From positions 5,917,267 through 5,981,266 of the forward strand of contig CM060848.1 of assembly GCA_030737835.1 (NCBI GenBank): DNA of 64,000 bases, read 5' to 3'. The stretch's first letter is position 1. Every line of letters starts with the position of its first letter. This document shows positions 3,791 through 40,494 of the stretch, one piece after another. The position numbers and the translations under genes are program-made. The notes under the pieces were generated by a model. The model ran no database searches, was not told the origin of the DNA, and saw only the letters and a list, made by a program, of their open reading frames with translations. Origin of the DNA: Acorus gramineus. Its lineage: Eukaryota; Streptophyta; Magnoliopsida; Acorales; Acoraceae.

Positions 3791-3938
3791 GATAAAAATG
3801 GTCATGAAACTCCATTTTTGTTGCCTCACTGTGGACGCGCATTTTTTGTTTGGATGGGAGTGGCGATAAAAATGGTCATGAAACTCCATTTTTGTTGCCT
3901 CACTGTGGACGCGCATTTTTTGTTTGGATGGGAGTGGC
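3791..3938. repeat. Perfect 74-bp tandem duplication
   Basis: The unit from 3791 to 3864 (starting GATAAAAATGGTCATGAAAC) is repeated at 3865-3938 without a visible mismatch. The identity implies a recent duplication. Open frames across it are by-products of the repeat. Confidence 0.9.
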
Positions 3939-23704: not shown

Positions 23705-24619
23705 GGGTTAAAGACATTTAAGTCCCTACAAACATGAAAAAACCCATATAAGTCCCTATTAAAATTGGGACAGACGTACGAGTCCCTGAAAACTCAGAAA
23801 AACCCAATTATCATCCCTGAGTTAAATTTTCATCCAAACTTAACGGAATATTCTCAGAATATTCAATCACATATAATTGTATAGACATTGAAGTCCTTAT
23901 AAACAGTCATAAAGACAAATTAGTCCCTACAAAAGACAAAATTGCCCCTGAAAGATTTTTACATTTAATTTGATAAACATTATAAATAATCGTAAAGACA
24001 AAATGGTCCCTATAAAAGACCAAAATGCCCCTGAAAAATGCATTCTACCGATTAAAATATTAGTTTTACATCCAAATTGTGATCTTCAGGTGGAGTGTGA
24101 TTGATAGGATAGAAGATGAAAAAATAAATAAAAAAATTATATTATTTGTCTTTATGATTGCTTATAAGGACTGCAATTTTTACACAATTAAATGTAAAAA
24201 TCCTTCAGGGGTATTTTTGTCTTTTACAGGGACCAATTTGGCTTTACGATTGTTTATAAATACTGTAATGTCTATTCAATTAAATGTAAAAGTCTTTCAG
24301 GAACAATTTTGTCTTTTGCGGGGATTAATTTTCTTTATGATTATTTATAGGGACAGTAATGTGTACACAATTTTAGGGACAATTTTATCTTTTGCAGGGA
24401 TTAATTTGTCTTTATGACTGTTTATAAGGACTTCAATGTCAACACAATTATATGTGATGGAATATTATAGGAATATTCCGTTAAGTTTGGATGAAATTTT
24501 AACTTAGGGATAATAATTGCGTTTTTTTGAGTTTTCAGGGACTTGTACGTCTGTCCCAATTTTAATAGGGACTTATATGGGTTTTCTCATGTTTGTAGGG
24601 ACTTAGATGTCTTTAACCC
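23705..24619. mobile_element. Long-TIR MULE-like element, non-autonomous
   Basis: The ends GGGTTAAAGACATTTAAGTC and (reverse complement) GGGTTAAAGACATCTAAGTC begin inverted repeats that stay alignable for about 240 bp of a 915-bp element. That makes it nearly a complete fold-back. The flanking 9-mers TTTTATTTA and TTTATTTTA agree at 7 of 9 positions, fitting an aged MULE-type duplication. The interior repeats AAAGACAAATTAGTCCCT-like phrases and encodes nothing recognisable. Confidence 0.75.
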
Positions 24620-25024
24620 TTTATTTTATTGTTGTGACTGTTTGTTATTGCTTTTATACAAGATTGCATTGTGAGAATTAAAGGAGCTGAAAGTTTAGAT
24701 GATCCTATTAAATGATACAAAATCATGGCCGATCTGCTATTGAAGCCTGATAAATTCTTGCCATAGCAGCAGGCCATAACCAAATAAATAAACAAAGAAT
24801 AGGTGTTTTGAATGATTATATACACCAACATATATGGCATGCTATAAACTCTCTTAAAATGTGTATTGGGGAGGTTATAGATTACTGTTTGCCTTGTATA
24901 CACACAATGTAAATGTAGTTTTAAAAAAACTAAACTGTTTGTTATTGCTTTTCTATATCTAAGGACAAATGTTTAATATATATTCTTAAATATTTTACCT
25001 ATCTATCCACTTGTATAAGTTAAA

Positions 25025-25290
25025 GGGTAATTAACATTTTTAGCCCCTGAAAATTCAATATTTACAAAAATAGCCCCCCCACCCGAATATTTGCAAAAAC
25101 TAGCCCCGGGCATTTTACACTGGAGACGGATTATATATAATCCGTCTCCAGTGTTGCAACACTAAAACATCAAAACTGGAGACGGCATATATATAAGCCG
25201 TCCCCTGGAGACGGCATATATATATGCCGTCTCCTGGAGACGGTATATATATATACCGTCTCCAGGGACGGCATATATATATGCCGTCCC
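25025..25290. repeat. Left terminal inverted repeat and five palindromes
   Basis: The terminal repeat covers 25025-25154. Palindromes lie at 25122-25149, 25178-25204, 25207-25234, 25236-25263 and 25265-25290. Each has arms close to GGAGACGG and CCGTCTCC around a 10-12 bp A/T centre (ATTATATATAAT or CATATATATATG types). The first is inside the terminal repeat; the others are separated by only 1-30 bp. Confidence 0.9.
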
Positions 25291-25396
25291 CGCTGCCAAG
25301 CCCTAAAACACCAAATTTTCACCCTTTTGTCCCTCTTTCACCCACCCACCCGTTGCCAACCCCGAAAAATCATCAAAAACAAGTTTGAATCCGAAG

Positions 25397-25840
25397 GTAA
25401 ACATCAAAACCCTAAATGTTCTTGAATTTTATTATTTATTTGTCAATTGTTTTGATTTTATTGAATAAATTAGGGTTTTTATAAAAAATCCTAAATGTTG
25501 AATGTTGAATTTATTTATTATTGGAATGTTGATTGTATGATGTTTTGTTAAGTGAAATGCGAATTTTTTTAGGGTTTTGGTTATTTTAAAATGTCTTATT
25601 TGTCAAAATAAACTTTTAAATCTTAAAAAAATTTGAAATTTTTTTTAAAAATTGTATGGCCTTAGGAAATAATTCAATGGCCTCTTAGTAAACATTTTAA
25701 AAAATTAAAGGCTATTTTTAGGAAATATGCTTTGTATGTGTTGCATGAATGTTTTTTGTGTTTAATGTGTATGTGTTGGATGGATTTTATTATTATGAAT
25801 TTAGAAATATATTTACTAAGTTGAATAATTTATGGTTTAG
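25397..25840 (+). other. Candidate leader intron of the MULE transposase gene
   Basis: GAATCCGAAG followed by GTAAAC at 25397 and TATGGTTTAG ending at 25840 would define a 444-bp intron whose acceptor abuts the start ATG at 25841. Inferred from splice-site form only. Confidence 0.4.
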
Positions 25841-28505
25841 ATGGTAAAGAAATCCGATGTCCCGTTAATGTACTCTTTTAACGGGAGGATTGTTCGACGC
25901 GAAGATAGTTCATTTTATGAAGGTGGTACCATGAAAACCACCATCATAAATAAGAAGATCTCTTATGTCGATTTACTCCAAATGATGTACCATTTGACGG
26001 GGACCGATCCAAGTCTTTACAAATTGTCCATGACTGCTGTGCATCCAACTCACGACGGAAAGTGTTTGGGTGCCCCTCTCGAAGATGATATGGGGGTGAA
26101 AGTTATGATAATGATGTACCCAAAGCACGCGCATATCATTCAAATATGGTTAGAGAAGGAAGAGATCATACAAAGAGGCCGTGGCGCGATGAATTATGAT
26201 GCAGAAGATTCATATCCTTCCATTGTTCGTGAACCATATCAACCTTCATCGTCGTCGTTTGTTCCGTGCACCCAAGAGAATATGATTGATGCAACACCGA
26301 CCAATGCCTATGGGAGTGTGAATATACCACATTTGTAAGTATTGTGAATTTATAGGATGTTTTTGGTGGGTGTATTCATATATGTAAGTATATTGTGTTT
26401 GCATTTATAGGTCCCCATTTCATGACATGGGTTGGGACGATATTCGTGAAGGAATTGAAGTGAACAATGAAGGAGAAGAAGATCAAGAAGGGGGAGAAGA
26501 AGAAGATCAAGATTGGGGAGAAGAAGAAGATCAAGAAGGGGAAGAAGAAGAAGAGGATGATGATGAAGATTCCGAAGAAGAAGAAGAAGCAGAGGAACCT
26601 GATAGTGAGGAGGACCATGATGTGAGGAGAACTGCCATCAGTGAATATGGTGTTCCTCAAATGTTTCCTACACGTGAGCTTATGGAGCAGGCGGTGGCTG
26701 AAAATGTCCATCCATGCATTTATGAAATCGGATCTTCTTCGTGTAATGAACTTGAGGTTGGTCAGCTTTTCGCGAATAAGAAGTCACTCATTAATGCTGT
26801 CCGAACCTGGAGCATAAAGAAATGCGCACAATGTCATGTGGTGAAATCAAATGCAGAAAAATACGCCGTTAAGTGCATAAATGATGAATGTAATTGGAGA
26901 TTATATGCGAGGAGGGTCGGTGGTTCAGAAATGTTCAAGATTTCCACTCTGAGAGTTCCTCATACATGCTTGGATCCTCTTCTCAGTTCAAATCACAGAC
27001 AATTTAGTTCTGATTATATCTCACAGCTGATTATGCCAACGATTCGTCATAATTTGAGAATCAGTGCTACTGAGATAATGGACAGGATACGTGCTGATCA
27101 TCACTACACAATTTCATATTCAAAGGCAAACCGTGCCAAATGGAAGGCTATGGAGAGGATATTTGGAAATTGGGAGGAATCATATGCTGAGTTGCCTCTA
27201 TATGTTGATGCCTTGAGGAGGTCTAATCCAGGAACAACTGTGTTCTTCGAAGGCCCTGTCATACAAGAGAATAACATGGGCAGACCGATCCGACAGTTTG
27301 AACGTGTTTTTTGGGCATTCGGTCCAGCCTTAGAGGCTTTCAAACATTGTCGTCCATTGGTTTGCATCGATGGAACACATCTGTATGGAAAGTATAAAGG
27401 AACTCTCCTGATAGCCACTGCTTGCGATGCAGAAAATGGTTTGCTTCCGATAGCCTTTGCTATAGTTGAATCTGAGAACAGAAGCAGTTGGACCTTCTTC
27501 CTTTGGAACTTGTTCTTTTCTGTTGGTGGTATAAACAATTTGTGTGTCATATCTGATCGGCACTTGGGCATCATAGCAGGCATGAAGGATATTGAGGAAT
27601 CAAGCAATGTAACATGGCACCATCGTTTCTGTATGAGACACATGATAGACAACTTCAAAAAACATGTAAAATCAAAGGAGTTGAGTGACCAGGTGTGGAG
27701 GGCTGCCACCTTGAAATGTCCAAATCAATTTGCTGATGAAATGCGAAAGATTCTTACTGCCTCCTCACAAGCTCGCACATGGCTTGATCAAGTCCCTCCA
27801 CAAACATGGGCCCTTTGTTATGACGATGGCCGTCGTCATGGCACGATGACCACCAATAGAGCTGAAAGCATGAACAGTGTCTTGAAAGGTGTAAGAGGGT
27901 TGCCAATCACTGCCATATTACAACAGACATTCATACGAGTGTCAGAGTATTTTTATACAAGGCGTGAATCGGCCGAGAGCATGTCAGGTGAACATGTGCC
28001 ATCTATGCAGCAACATTTGGAGAGAACTGCACATGATGCAAGGGCGATGTTAGTAAGAAGGCTTGATAGATCAGAATTCAATGTCCAAGACAAGAATGCG
28101 GTTATGTACATTGTTTTCCTATATCCTGACAATGCAGAATGTCAATGTCATGTTCCGAAGTTGTTTCACTATCCATGTGCACATGTCATAGCGGCCTGTG
28201 GGTATGCTCGTATTAGTCCTGGGAGATATGTGTCACATTGGCTTTCCTCAGAGTCATATAGACACACTTATGAACCCCGATTCCACTCCGTTGATGATAA
28301 AAGTCGTTGGCCGATTCCTACGGAAAACGATCCCATCTTCATCCCACCAAATGTTAGGAGACAAGCGGGGCGCCCTGTATCAACTCGCCGACGTATGCAT
28401 ATGGACTCCAGGGATCCAAGTCTGAGATATACATGTTCAATATGTCATGAGAAAGGCCATAGAAAAAATAAATGTCCACGTAGAAATACAAATGCTGGTA
28501 ATTGA
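25841..28505 (+). CDS. MuDR-type (MULE) transposase, two exons
   Basis: Exons 25841-26334 and 26411-28505 join in phase (donor GTAAGT, acceptor TTTATAG) to give 862 residues without interruption. Order of parts: an N-terminal PB1-like region (about 1-110); a very acidic Glu/Asp run (about 180-225); the MuDR zinc-binding region with CINDECNWRLYARR; the MULE DDE domain with CIDGTHLYGKYKG (about 482-494) and SDRHLGI (about 545); a SWIM zinc finger CQCHVPKLFHYPCAH (about 741-755); and a C-terminal zinc knuckle CX2CX4HX4C (about 839-852). Family role: it binds the element ends and catalyses cut-and-paste transposition in the nucleus. All signature residues seen are present. An alternative splice from 28497 to 28579 would merely alter the last few residues. 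The adjacent PMD gene follows in the same orientation. Confidence 0.93.
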
Positions 28506-28582
28506 TGTTAAATATGATTGTGATATGATGATGAATGTTCAATTGTTTGAGTAGATATTAACTTGTGTTCAAATTACAGGTG

Positions 28583-30810
28583 ATGGACATCCGTGAGTGG
28601 CATGGACCCGTCGTGGATGATTTGCTGTATTTTCAGGGATCTCATAGGTCTCATCATGGATTCCAGGGCAAGGTATGACAAATGATGTGTTTTTCTCTAA
28701 TGTTATTCTTCATATATGATTTTTTTCTTACTTGAATATATAATTTCCTTAAACAGACCGACTCCTCCAAGTTTACGATCCACATGGTGGCATTGCGTCA
28801 CTGGGTCATGGATCCACGCATCGAGCCATACGTGAGGGCATCGGGTTGTATTATTTGACAGAGATGGGATATACCAGATCAGATCATCGACTTCTACAAG
28901 CACTGACTGAGAGATGGAGACCAGAGACCAACACATTTCATCTGCGACAGGGCGAGATGACAATTACACTTCAGGACGTTGCTATTCTGACTGGACTACC
29001 CATTGATGGCAAGCCCGTGACTGGTATCACAGACCACGATGATTGGGCCAGCGTCTGTGAGGAGCTGTTAGGTGTTGGCCCCCCTGCAGATAAGATCAAG
29101 GGTGGAAGAATTTTTCTCTCGTGGCTTAAAGAAACCTTCAGCATCGTACCAGATGTTGAATTGGACGACGATATCCTCCAGCAGTATGCACGTGCATACA
29201 TCTTATTTGTGCTTGGATCAACAATCTTCGCCGATGGCACAGGAAATAAGATACATGCGTGCTACCTTCATTTATTCAGAGATTTTGAGGATGCTGGTCG
29301 ATATTCATGGGGTGCAGCTGCGTTGGCCCACTTATATAGAGCATTGTACAGAGGTAGTGTGCTTGGAGAGAGGATGTCGGCAGGATCTCATGGTTTTTAT
29401 TCTTTGCTACAGGTAATATGCAAACCCAATTTTCATCCATACATACTAAATTTGTTTTTTTTCCTGTGTTACTAAAGATTTTGTTCCAATGCAGCTATGG
29501 TCGTGGGAGAGATTACATGTGGGACGACCGTCATTGCATGATCCGGATTTTATTCTTGGAGATCGACCTTTGGGAGCAAGGTAATGTCAATATTTTCATC
29601 TTCTTTTGTCAATTCATAGAAGATCATATATCATTAAATTCGATATTTCAGGTGGAAGGTGACTCAGAGGTTTGATGAAAATTCGCGTGTTCTGATATAC
29701 TATAGAGCACAACTGGACTATCAGCTTCAGTCGCAGGTGACTATACAATTAGCCATATATTTCACAAATGATATATTCTACGTTAATTGTCATACTAATT
29801 ATATATTTGGTTTTTGGTAGGTTATATGGCAGCCTTATCCTGGGACATATGAGACACTACCACCTGCATGTATGGATCATATGGAGTTGTGGACGGCTAG
29901 GGTCCCACTCATTTGCTTTGATATTGTGGAGATGCACGTGCCGGATCGAGTCGCACGTCAATTTGGATGGCATCAGGACATTCCATCTGATGTAGAGGCC
30001 ATCGACCGGGTAAACCGACGAGGTAGACAGGATGTGAATTGGATAGTTTTTCACCAGTCTTATATCGAGCGTTGGGACCAACGATTGGATCACATCCACC
30101 AATTCTCTCATACCCGGAGTTCGAGGAGATATATGGAGTGGTACTGGGAGAGAACAGTCAGACATATCACACCTCCACCACCCCCACAGTACCATCCAGG
30201 CTATGTCGCACCAAATTCGGTAAGAATTTTAAACGCGTGTTACATTTTTAGATAGTGATAAATGATTTTATATTACTTATCATATTGAAACTTTTGTTAA
30301 CAGGGGGGAGTTACACAGAACATTACCGAGGTGCTTGCAAGGGGGTTGGTCTTATACCCCAACTGCGGTGAGTGGGATCGTATAGTTGCTGTGGCACGGG
30401 ACTATGCAGATGCGATGATGGGAGACATGGGACAACCTTCGAGTACCCCCAGTGCATCTACAGATGCTGATGATTCTCAGGATGTGGTAGATGATAGTTT
30501 CGCTCACACGGAATTCACCATTGATGAGTTCTTCAATGATGTACGACTCGATGCAGAGATCGATGAGCAACCACAACAACCAGCCCCAGCTCCTGATCGA
30601 GCTCCACAGATGACACTCCAGACATATACTCGTGGACCACGCAGGGTTTGGTGTACTTCTACTACTGCCAGTCGGGGATCGGGCGAACAATTTACCACTC
30701 CACCACAATCAGGTGTGCCGCCATCCACAGCAACTGACGTACCCTCTTCATCAGCACCTCCTGCTCCGAGAAAAGCCAAAAAGAAAGGACTTCTGAGAAT
30801 ATTTGGATGA
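28583..30810 (+). pseudogene. Plant mobile domain (PMD) gene of the MULE, one apparent frameshift
   Basis: Six exons can be read: 28583-28672, 28757-29412, 29495-29580, 29652-29736, 29821-30219 and 30304-30810, all with GT-AG borders. PMD hallmarks appear in order: DDLLYFQGSHRS, LTERWRPETNTFHL, DVAILTGLPIDGKPVTG, LWSWERLHVGRP, RRQD then WIVFHQSYIERW. The C-terminus is Pro/Thr-rich with a basic end RKAKKKG. The exons sum to 1823 nt, one short of a multiple of three. Exon 2 starts in the frame reading HMVALRHWVMDPRIEPYVRASG and continues in another frame at LYYLTEMGY near 28846, so one base appears lost. Family knowledge: PMD proteins such as MAIN and MAIL1 act in the nucleus in silencing and genome stability, and related domains are carried by transposons. 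A missed splice form or sequencing error could also explain the shift. Confidence 0.85.
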
Positions 30811-31036
30811 TTGTATTTCTGTTGGATGTAAAACACTTTTATTATATTCATGCATTTTCATTTCTGTGTATTGTATTTATGTATTTTCATTGGTGTTTAG
30901 AAACAGGAGTCAAGTGATTATAATGGATTTATGTAAATATCAATGCATTTTTATTATATTTATGCATGTTCAAGCAGGAATTTTTATACAGGTGAGATAG
31001 CCAAAATTGTATACAATAATAAAAAAAAAAAAGACT

Positions 31037-31340
31037 GAAGACGGATTGTATATAATCCGTCTCCAGGAGACGGATTATATACAATCCGTCTTCAGGAGAC
31101 GGGTTATATATAACCCGTCTCCAGTGTAAATCCATAAAGGGGCCCATTTACACTGGAGACGGATTATATATAATCCGTCTCCATTGTAAATGGCCACTTA
31201 CGGATTTTACACTGGAGACGGATTATATATAATCCGTCTCCAGTGTAAAATACCAGCGGGGCTAGTTTTTGCAAATATTCGGGTGGCGGGGCTATTTTTG
31301 CAAATTTTCAATTTTCAGGGGTTAAAAGTGCTAATTACCC
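31037..31340. repeat. Right terminal inverted repeat and five palindromes
   Basis: The terminal repeat covers 31209-31340. Palindromes lie at 31037-31064, 31066-31093, 31095-31122, 31155-31182 and 31214-31241, all 28 bp, with GGAGACGG/CCGTCTCC arms (some units with GAAGACGG or CCGTCTTC) and ATTATATATAAT-type centres. The first three are separated by single bases. Confidence 0.9.
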
Positions 31341-31349
31341 TAAGTTAAA

Positions 31350-38761: not shown

Positions 38762-39020
38762 TTTTTTGCACTTCTTGCAAATGTGGAATCCAATCAAGAA
38801 ACTGTCTCAGTTGTGAAATTTTTCCTTCCGTGCATCTGAATTTCTTCCGTTAATACCGTGTATCTGAAATTCGGCAGTGTATCTAGATTAATTTTTTGCA
38901 CTTCTTGCAAATGTGAAATCCAATCAAGAAACTGTCTCAGTTGTTGAATTTTCCCTTCTGTGCATCTGAATTTCTTCTGTTAATACTGTGTATCTGAAAT
39001 TCGACAGTGTATCTTGATTT
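38762..39020. repeat. 131-bp tandem duplication inside the MULE-like element
   Basis: The block starting TTTTTTGCACTTCTTGCAAA (38762) is repeated from about 38893 with few differences, through GTGTATCTGAAATTCG to CAGTGTATCT. Confidence 0.8.
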
Positions 39021-39636: not shown

Positions 39637-40455
39637 TTCCTTTGGTAAATTGGTTTCCATTTCACATGAATCGTAGATGTCTTCCAAATAATTTGATTCT
39701 TCAAATGTGTCATCCATATAATCCTCCTCACTGCCTGTTGAAAAATAGAAAAAAAGTCACATGTTATAAAATTAAAATTAAGATACAGTGCTGTATCTTA
39801 AAACCAATACAAACCATATGGATTTTGAATTACCGGACATGTTATTTAGCAGTACATATTTTCAAATAAAGTCCTTCAAACCTTTATATGTATATACGTA
39901 TATGACAATTAGCAATTAAATATTGATCAAGTACACATTAATCAATTCCATAGAAATAAAATGTCAAAAATTCATTTTAAGATACAGTGCTGTATCTTAA
40001 AACCAAATAAAAACCATGTGGATTTTGAATTACCAAACATGTTAATTCCTTTGGTAAACTGGTTTCCATTTCACATGAATCGTAGATGTCTTCCAAATAA
40101 TTTGATTCTTCAAATGTGTCATCCATATAATCCTCCTCACTGCCTGTTGAAAAATAGAAAAGAAGTCACATGTTATAAAATTAGAATTAAGATACAGTGC
40201 TGTATCTTAAAACCAATACAAACCATATGGATTTTGAATTACCGGACATGTTATTTAGCAGTACATATTTTCAAATAAAGTCCTTCAAACCTTTATATGT
40301 ATATACGTATATGACAATTAGCAATTAAATATTGATCAAGTACACATTAATCAATTCCATAGAAACAAAATGTCAAAAATTCATTTTAAGATACAGTGCT
40401 GTATCTTAAAACCAAACAAAAACCATGTGGATTTTGAATTACCAAACAAGTTAAT
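39637..40455. repeat. 409-bp tandem duplication inside the MULE-like element
   Basis: The block beginning TTCCTTTGGTAAATTGGTTT (39637) returns at 40046 nearly unchanged. Each unit carries two perfect AGATACAGTGCTGTATCT palindromes, at 39780, 39977, 40191 and 40388. The frames 39504-39869 and 39961-40278 are only the two copies of this non-coding block. A (TG)n microsatellite follows at 40511-40533. Confidence 0.8.
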
Positions 40456-40494
40456 TAGCAGTACATATACTTTAAAAAAAGTCTTTGAAGCCTT

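Follow-up and report, generated by a model that had tools for sequence, protein, structure and literature searches.

The element and its palindromes

The 64-kb stretch of the Acorus gramineus genome (398.6 Mb) analysed here (5917267-5981266 of contig CM060848.1), referred to as the window, contains a Mutator-like element (MULE) of 6.3 kb (positions 25025-31340) that carries an array of palindromes just inside each of its ends; these two arrays are the subject of our analysis. The element is flanked by exact copies of the 9-bp target-site duplication (TSD) TAAGTTAAA (25016-25024 and 31341-31349). Its terminal inverted repeats (TIRs) of about 84 bp, the left on the plus strand (25025-25108) and the right on the minus strand (31257-31340), form an inverted pair (I1, 25024-25108 and 31257-31341) with 85-nt arms that are 92% complementary. 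A MULE/MuDR transposase, the TIRs, and the 9-bp TSD (8-9 bp being expected) identify it as a MULE. The genes all lie on the plus strand. A first open reading frame (ORF) of 165 aa (25841-26338), which has no Pfam match, is probably the 5' exon of the transposase gene; it is followed by a MURA-like MULE transposase ORF of 705 aa, stop to stop (26388-28505), with matches over the Pfam cut-offs to PF10551 (2.3e-14), PF03108 (2e-10), and PF00872, and with a SWIM match just below. A GAA-rich tandem repeat (26469-26597) encodes an acidic run early in this ORF. Next comes a plant mobile domain (PMD) gene (28753-30252), with open stretches at 28753-29475 and 29821-30255 that match PF10536 (E=2e-49 and 1.2e-23); AlphaFold models of its first exon, from four sequences, had a predicted local distance difference test (pLDDT) score of 34.6. 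A stretch of 169 aa (30301-30810), probably the gene's C-terminal exon, has no Pfam match below E=0.24, and its counterpart at a related locus, L147, is 72% identical.

An earlier note on this stretch (below, the original prediction) had listed ten 28-bp palindromes, five per end inside the TIRs, and all ten are found where it placed them. They are called units L1 to L5 and R1 to R5 here, and loci carry three-digit numbers. At the left end these are L1 (25122-25149; outermost, ATT centre, perfect), L2 (25178-25205; CAT centre, two mispaired positions), L3 (25207-25234; CAT centre, perfect), L4 (25236-25263; TAT centre, perfect), and L5 (25264-25291; GGGACGG/CCGTCCC arms, perfect over the 26 bp of 25265-25290). 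At the right end they are R1 (31037-31064) and R2 (31066-31093), both asymmetric with two mispaired positions, R3 (31095-31122; GTT centre), R4 (31155-31182; ATT centre), and the outermost R5 (31214-31241; ATT centre), the last three perfect. The symmetry over 28 bp is thus complete in six units and reaches 26 bp in a seventh, three units having two mispaired positions each; the centre is A/T-rich as predicted, with a length of 12 bp in all ten units rather than the 10-12 bp given. The outermost unit at each end lies about 100 bp from the tip of the element. Genome-wide, GGAGACGG-N12-CCGTCTCC occurs at 650 places and the N10 form at 35, and the reversed patterns at 0 each in the 399-Mb genome, which excludes chance as the origin of the array. 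The two halves of the ten window units differ by 0.7 on average, compared with 1.82 under shuffled pairing (P=0.002; P=0.045 when the pairing is shuffled within ends only).

Constraint, turnover, and copying across the family

Loci were picked by their similarity to the TIR, the right end, or the transposase of the window, and so are not a random sample. The left-TIR query gave 487 first-look candidates, of which the best 40 were scored, all matching; a 1.4-kb piece of the transposase gave 256, of which the best 40 were all 100% identical after rounding. Full stretches were taken for 20 places and mostly ends elsewhere, amounting to 142 end rows, or 141 without one duplicate; since one of these is spurious (a second start in L121), about 140 ends were compared. 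TSDs with at most one mismatch are present in 35 of 50 element pairs, some possibly by chance, shifts of up to 4 bp having been permitted in AT-rich flanks.

The outermost unit is constrained. Aligned with MAFFT, 56 left and 68 right ends show 29 singletons (0.52 per site) and 4 shared variants in the 56 sites of this unit, compared with 66 and 71 over 168 sites in the TIR (0.39 singletons per site), 14 and 15 over 30 sites in the linker, and 16 and 44 over 40 sites in the next 20 bp. The proportion of singletons to shared variants differs from that of the TIR (Fisher p=2.6e-5) and of the linker (p=0.001). A query containing units had supplied some of the right ends, so the count was repeated on transposase-picked ends (35 left and 30 right, plus the window), with the same outcome: 17 and 1 in the unit, 49 and 49 in the TIR (p=4e-4). 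Variants of the unit thus arise at TIR-like rates and are seldom passed on, singletons being many and shared variants few; this supports the selection on the palindrome that had been proposed. The centre of the outermost unit, with 8 singletons and 1 shared variant over 24 sites, is as constrained as the arms. In the right-end alignment the arms differ from the consensus by 2.0%, the TIR by 4.8%, and the spacer by 19%. Unit 1 is unrecognisable in 15 of 140 end rows, one of them the spurious row; the remaining 14 disruptions are all different strings.

The arrays as a whole turn over rapidly. Pairwise comparison of eight full copies gives an average mismatch of 0.3% for the transposase ORF and 0.8% for the PMD part, as against 12% for the left and 8% for the right arrays (with gaps of 27% and 35%), array values that are inflated by the partial misalignment of recombined arrays. 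For the left TIR the figure is 1.5%, for the right TIR 8.9%, and for the 3' flank 3.9%. An inner anchor is present at 126 ends, which between them show 107 distinct arrays (47 of 57 left, 60 of 69 right). From the low transposase divergence and the many distinct arrays we conclude that the family is young and its arrays are reshuffled fast, the right end diverging as a whole as well. The right TIR (31257-31340 in the window) differs by up to 16% among copies whose transposase ORFs are less than 1% apart, as if lineages had swapped ends. Chimeric ends also occur: at 11 of 69 right ends (L092, L097-L101, L104, L117, L119, L120, and L122) unit 1 is followed by the start of the left-end spacer, at 4 of 57 left ends (L003, L029, L079, and L083) by a right-type spacer start, and six anchored right arrays carry a left-type TIR. 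Left arrays of two units are found in at least six insertions (L009, L010, L020, L023, L043, and L063). Most of the spacer is common to L009 and L020, and likewise to L010 and L023, which points to elements that remain mobile after losing inner units; recurrent loss after insertion could also give such pairs.

Part of the symmetry bears the marks of copying, as the original prediction had supposed. R1 and R2 form a perfect 30-nt inverted pair (I17, 100% complementary) across a 1-bp junction, each with two internal mismatches; since the units are asymmetric and yet exact mirrors, the axis of symmetry is their junction and not the unit. The spacers R3-R4 (31123-31154) and R4-R5 (31183-31213) are likewise mirror images of each other (the cores score 13 when compared as mirrors and -1 when compared directly; shuffle P=0.001), and in the sister copy L129 two adjacent units have, by eye, a changed base in common, mirrored about their junction. 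Half-units appear to be exchanged as well. Among 57 one-sided units of the left arrays, 23 join a TAT left half to a CAT right half, 5 show the reverse, and 19 a CA/CG difference; 12 of the 23 TAT/CAT hybrids stand between CAT/CAT and TAT/TAT units, the arrangement expected if tandem duplications break within the TATATA core. Agreement of halves in the distinct left arrays is 50% within units (n=156; 14% when shuffled) and 6% across junctions (n=71); in the right arrays it is 45% within units (n=226; 31% shuffled) and 35% across junctions (n=71; 18% shuffled). Without the perfect ATT/ATT units, agreement within left units is 38% (15% shuffled).

The paired variation of the centres, from which selection on or concerted copying of the palindrome had been deduced, amounts to a few inherited unit types, each specific to its position: ATT, CAT, TAT, and GGGACGG-CAT at the left, and ATT, ATT, GTT, and the R1/R2 pair at the right. 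Constraint and copying are both supported; paired change as an ongoing process is not. Outermost units with a centre of 12 and at most three arm mismatches were compared at 106 ends (45 left, 61 right), where one-sided changes account for 24 pair cells and two-sided changes for 1. Recent change is therefore uncompensated, the outcome that the original prediction had named as refuting it, and we reject ongoing compensatory evolution in this unit. The single two-sided case, in L068, has a GTT-type centre and may be a swap of units.

Compact and sister elements carry palindromes too. Non-autonomous elements that consist of TIRs and palindromes and measure about 620 bp occur at 8 places genome-wide (L085-L091; e.g. 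G000:C10:13963129-13963739); all seven examined have 4-7 palindromes, and four of the seven have exact TSDs, so that the TIR together with the array may suffice in cis. Among 20 stretches of sister subfamilies, 10 have a unit in which both arms are exact; ACT or ATT precedes it and different spacers follow. Others are degenerate. L147, whose first PMD exon is 86% identical to that of the window, carries six units, most with CAT centres, in which neither arm has more than two changes.

L145 and L146 come from two other PMD groups, which look multi-copy by score and length. Their first PMD exons share 35% and 32% identity with that of the window and 75% with each other. Neither locus contains the words GGAGACGG or CCGTCTCC. 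Beside their PMD genes lie arrays of TCGAC-N9-GTCGA (L145:6600-8260 and L146:7100-8110), with 71 TCGAC/GTCGA words in 1661 bp (2.6 expected) and 57 in 1011 bp (1.8 expected), within bounds chosen after the repeats had been seen. Close inverted pairs have this form, with a variable N9, in 15 of 17 cases in L145 and 20 of 24 in L146. Genome-wide, TCGAC-N9-GTCGA is found at 2346 places (558 for the reversed control), the N10 form at 177 (control 124), and TCGACA-N7-TGTCGA at 1488 against 4. Fixed arms and spacing around a variable centre are the form that a site for a dimer would be expected to take. Both loci also have a second ORF on the minus strand, convergent to the PMD gene (L145:8654-9901 and L146:8348-9901; 71% identical), for which neither Pfam nor PDB gave a notable match; by eye we take it to resemble the C-terminus of a MULE transposase (SWIM) joined to an OTU-like protease.

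Elsewhere in the window there are further tandem repeats: a 92/76-bp array to the left of the MULE (24144-24449), two identical 74-bp copies (3791-3938), two copies of 130 bp (38762-39019), and two 409-bp copies that are 98% alike (39637-40456).

Roles proposed for the arrays

Of the roles offered by the original prediction (binding sites for a dimeric transposase or PMD protein, cruciform signals, or a source of hairpin RNA), a site for a dimeric protein is the best. We consider it reasonably likely, judging from sequence comparisons, that the arrays are dyad-symmetric dimer sites for a protein encoded by the element, and that the making of further copies requires at least the outermost unit of either end in cis. 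A dimer of either the transposase or the PMD protein would bind the palindromic units; the data do not separate these two as the binder. The outermost unit, at least, would thus probably be a docking site that the transposon needs, and further units would supply additional binding sites in a number that may vary. The paired variety would stem from a few old unit types, reshuffled as half-units swap at the TATATA core and as fold-back produces inverted copies, and arrays would turn over much faster than the genes as a result.

Several observations weigh against this account. The differing disruptions of the outermost unit could be damage suffered after insertion rather than a sign that the unit is necessary, and the fast divergence is not confined to the arrays, reaching as it does the right TIR and the 3' flank of full copies. 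Half-unit exchange leaves much unexplained: 11 of the 23 TAT/CAT hybrids do not lie between both expected parents, the CA/CG difference of 19 one-sided left units is a plain point difference, and right arrays outside the ATT units have no excess of agreement within units (21%, as against 19% shuffled). The arrays of L145 and L146 could not be placed relative to element ends. Two further points lead to the first alternative, in which the signal would be the structure of the DNA: cruciforms or hairpins extruded at the ends would aid cleavage or synapsis without a sequence-specific dimer. As single strands the palindromes fold strongly (-11.5 to -44.1 kcal/mol, z -6 to -14), so that a structural role is possible, and a constrained centre in the outermost unit is as compatible with one structure spanning all 28 bp as with two half-sites; several of the disruptions, moreover, delete most of the stem. 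A structural signal, however, would tolerate the paired changes that are all but missing from the outermost unit, whereas the sequence of the arms is preserved across subfamilies, and the variable centre and fixed spacing in the other PMD lineage fit a bound protein better. We regard this alternative as unlikely.

The arrays might also be a by-product, with template switching or quasi-palindrome correction keeping the repeats symmetric and no function involved. In yeast, according to the excerpts consulted of PMC8604942, template switching homogenises the arms of inverted repeats, and the mirror copies about a junction axis, the mirrored spacers, part of the half-unit hybrids, and the fast turnover are all of the kind that such a process leaves. 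It does not explain why variants of the outermost unit are so rarely shared beside TIR and spacer variants that are. Nor can the correction be strong, R1 and R2 having stayed internally asymmetric in many copies. As a full explanation we find it quite improbable, copying being one ingredient of the account based on dimer sites. Very unlikely, finally, is a source of hairpin or small RNA, or a silencing target or decoy: the inverted repeats are long and nested, and the tandem repeats of Arabidopsis VANDAL elements overlap targets of RNA-directed DNA methylation (PMC10398659, in part), but the window has no Rfam match at the gathering threshold, both arrays lie outside the gene ORFs, and such a role would not select for the retention of units.

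The outermost unit offers a defined 28-bp site whose variants rarely spread alongside the transposon, and exchange of half-units and mirror copying at palindromes have a natural record in the arrays. The arrays also tie lineage-specific dyads to a captured host domain, the PMD.

Comparison with known systems

Among the papers listed by our literature searches we found no report of a palindrome array in a plant MULE, as judged by titles and the beginnings of abstracts, and one may still be in print. The comparisons below draw on parts of the cited papers. Among the closest are the VANDAL MULEs of Arabidopsis with their anti-silencing VANC proteins, which bind motif arrays (PMC5735166, PMC10398659); these elements likewise have arrays of short motifs in non-coding DNA, gain and lose units between related copies, and use different motifs in related families. 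The rapid turnover of such an array is seen here as well (107 of 126 distinct; 8-12% mismatch plus gaps, against 0.3% for the transposase). They differ in that the VANC21 motif, YAGTATTAY, stands in one orientation, whereas the units described here, being palindromic or nearly so, have none, and in that VANDAL TIRs are described as degenerate, unlike the TIRs of about 84 bp and 92% complementarity in our element; the string 'palindrom' is absent from the main texts of both papers.

Other transposons have repetitive ends. Muta1 and other MULEs of Aedes aegypti (PMC5225508) share the 8-9 bp TSD, have subterminal tandem repeats within the TIR, and include non-autonomous copies that vary in repeat number; their repeats, however, are 9 tandem copies of a 12-bp sequence, and “palindromic” there refers to an imperfect 10-bp terminal motif. 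Galileo/Foldback (PMC3688188) has many secondary sites for the transposase THAP domain in its long, internally repetitive TIRs, with a proposed role in binding specificity, but belongs to the P-element superfamily, and 'palindrom' is absent from the main text. As in these systems, the repeats of our family stand at both ends and are retained in compact non-autonomous copies.

PMD-carrying MULEs are known from work on MAIN/MAIL1 (PMC5418596), whose authors speculate on an anti-silencing role of the MULE-encoded PMD for transposable elements. In several grasses and Amborella they describe the PMD as fused to the MULE transposase, whereas here it is a separate ORF after the transposase; the consulted parts of that paper make no mention of an array. 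It is conceivable, though on present data rather doubtful, that plant MULEs with a PMD gene as a rule carry lineage-specific dyad arrays (the GGAGACGG-N12 and TCGAC-N9 types) read by a PMD dimer, evolving by half-unit exchange and fold-back copying, and that they form an independent counterpart to the anti-silencing system of VANC and VANDAL. Should the PMD protein or the transposase indeed bind the dyads, they would be a second, structurally different pairing of a motif array with a transposon protein, and perhaps point to a function for the PMD.

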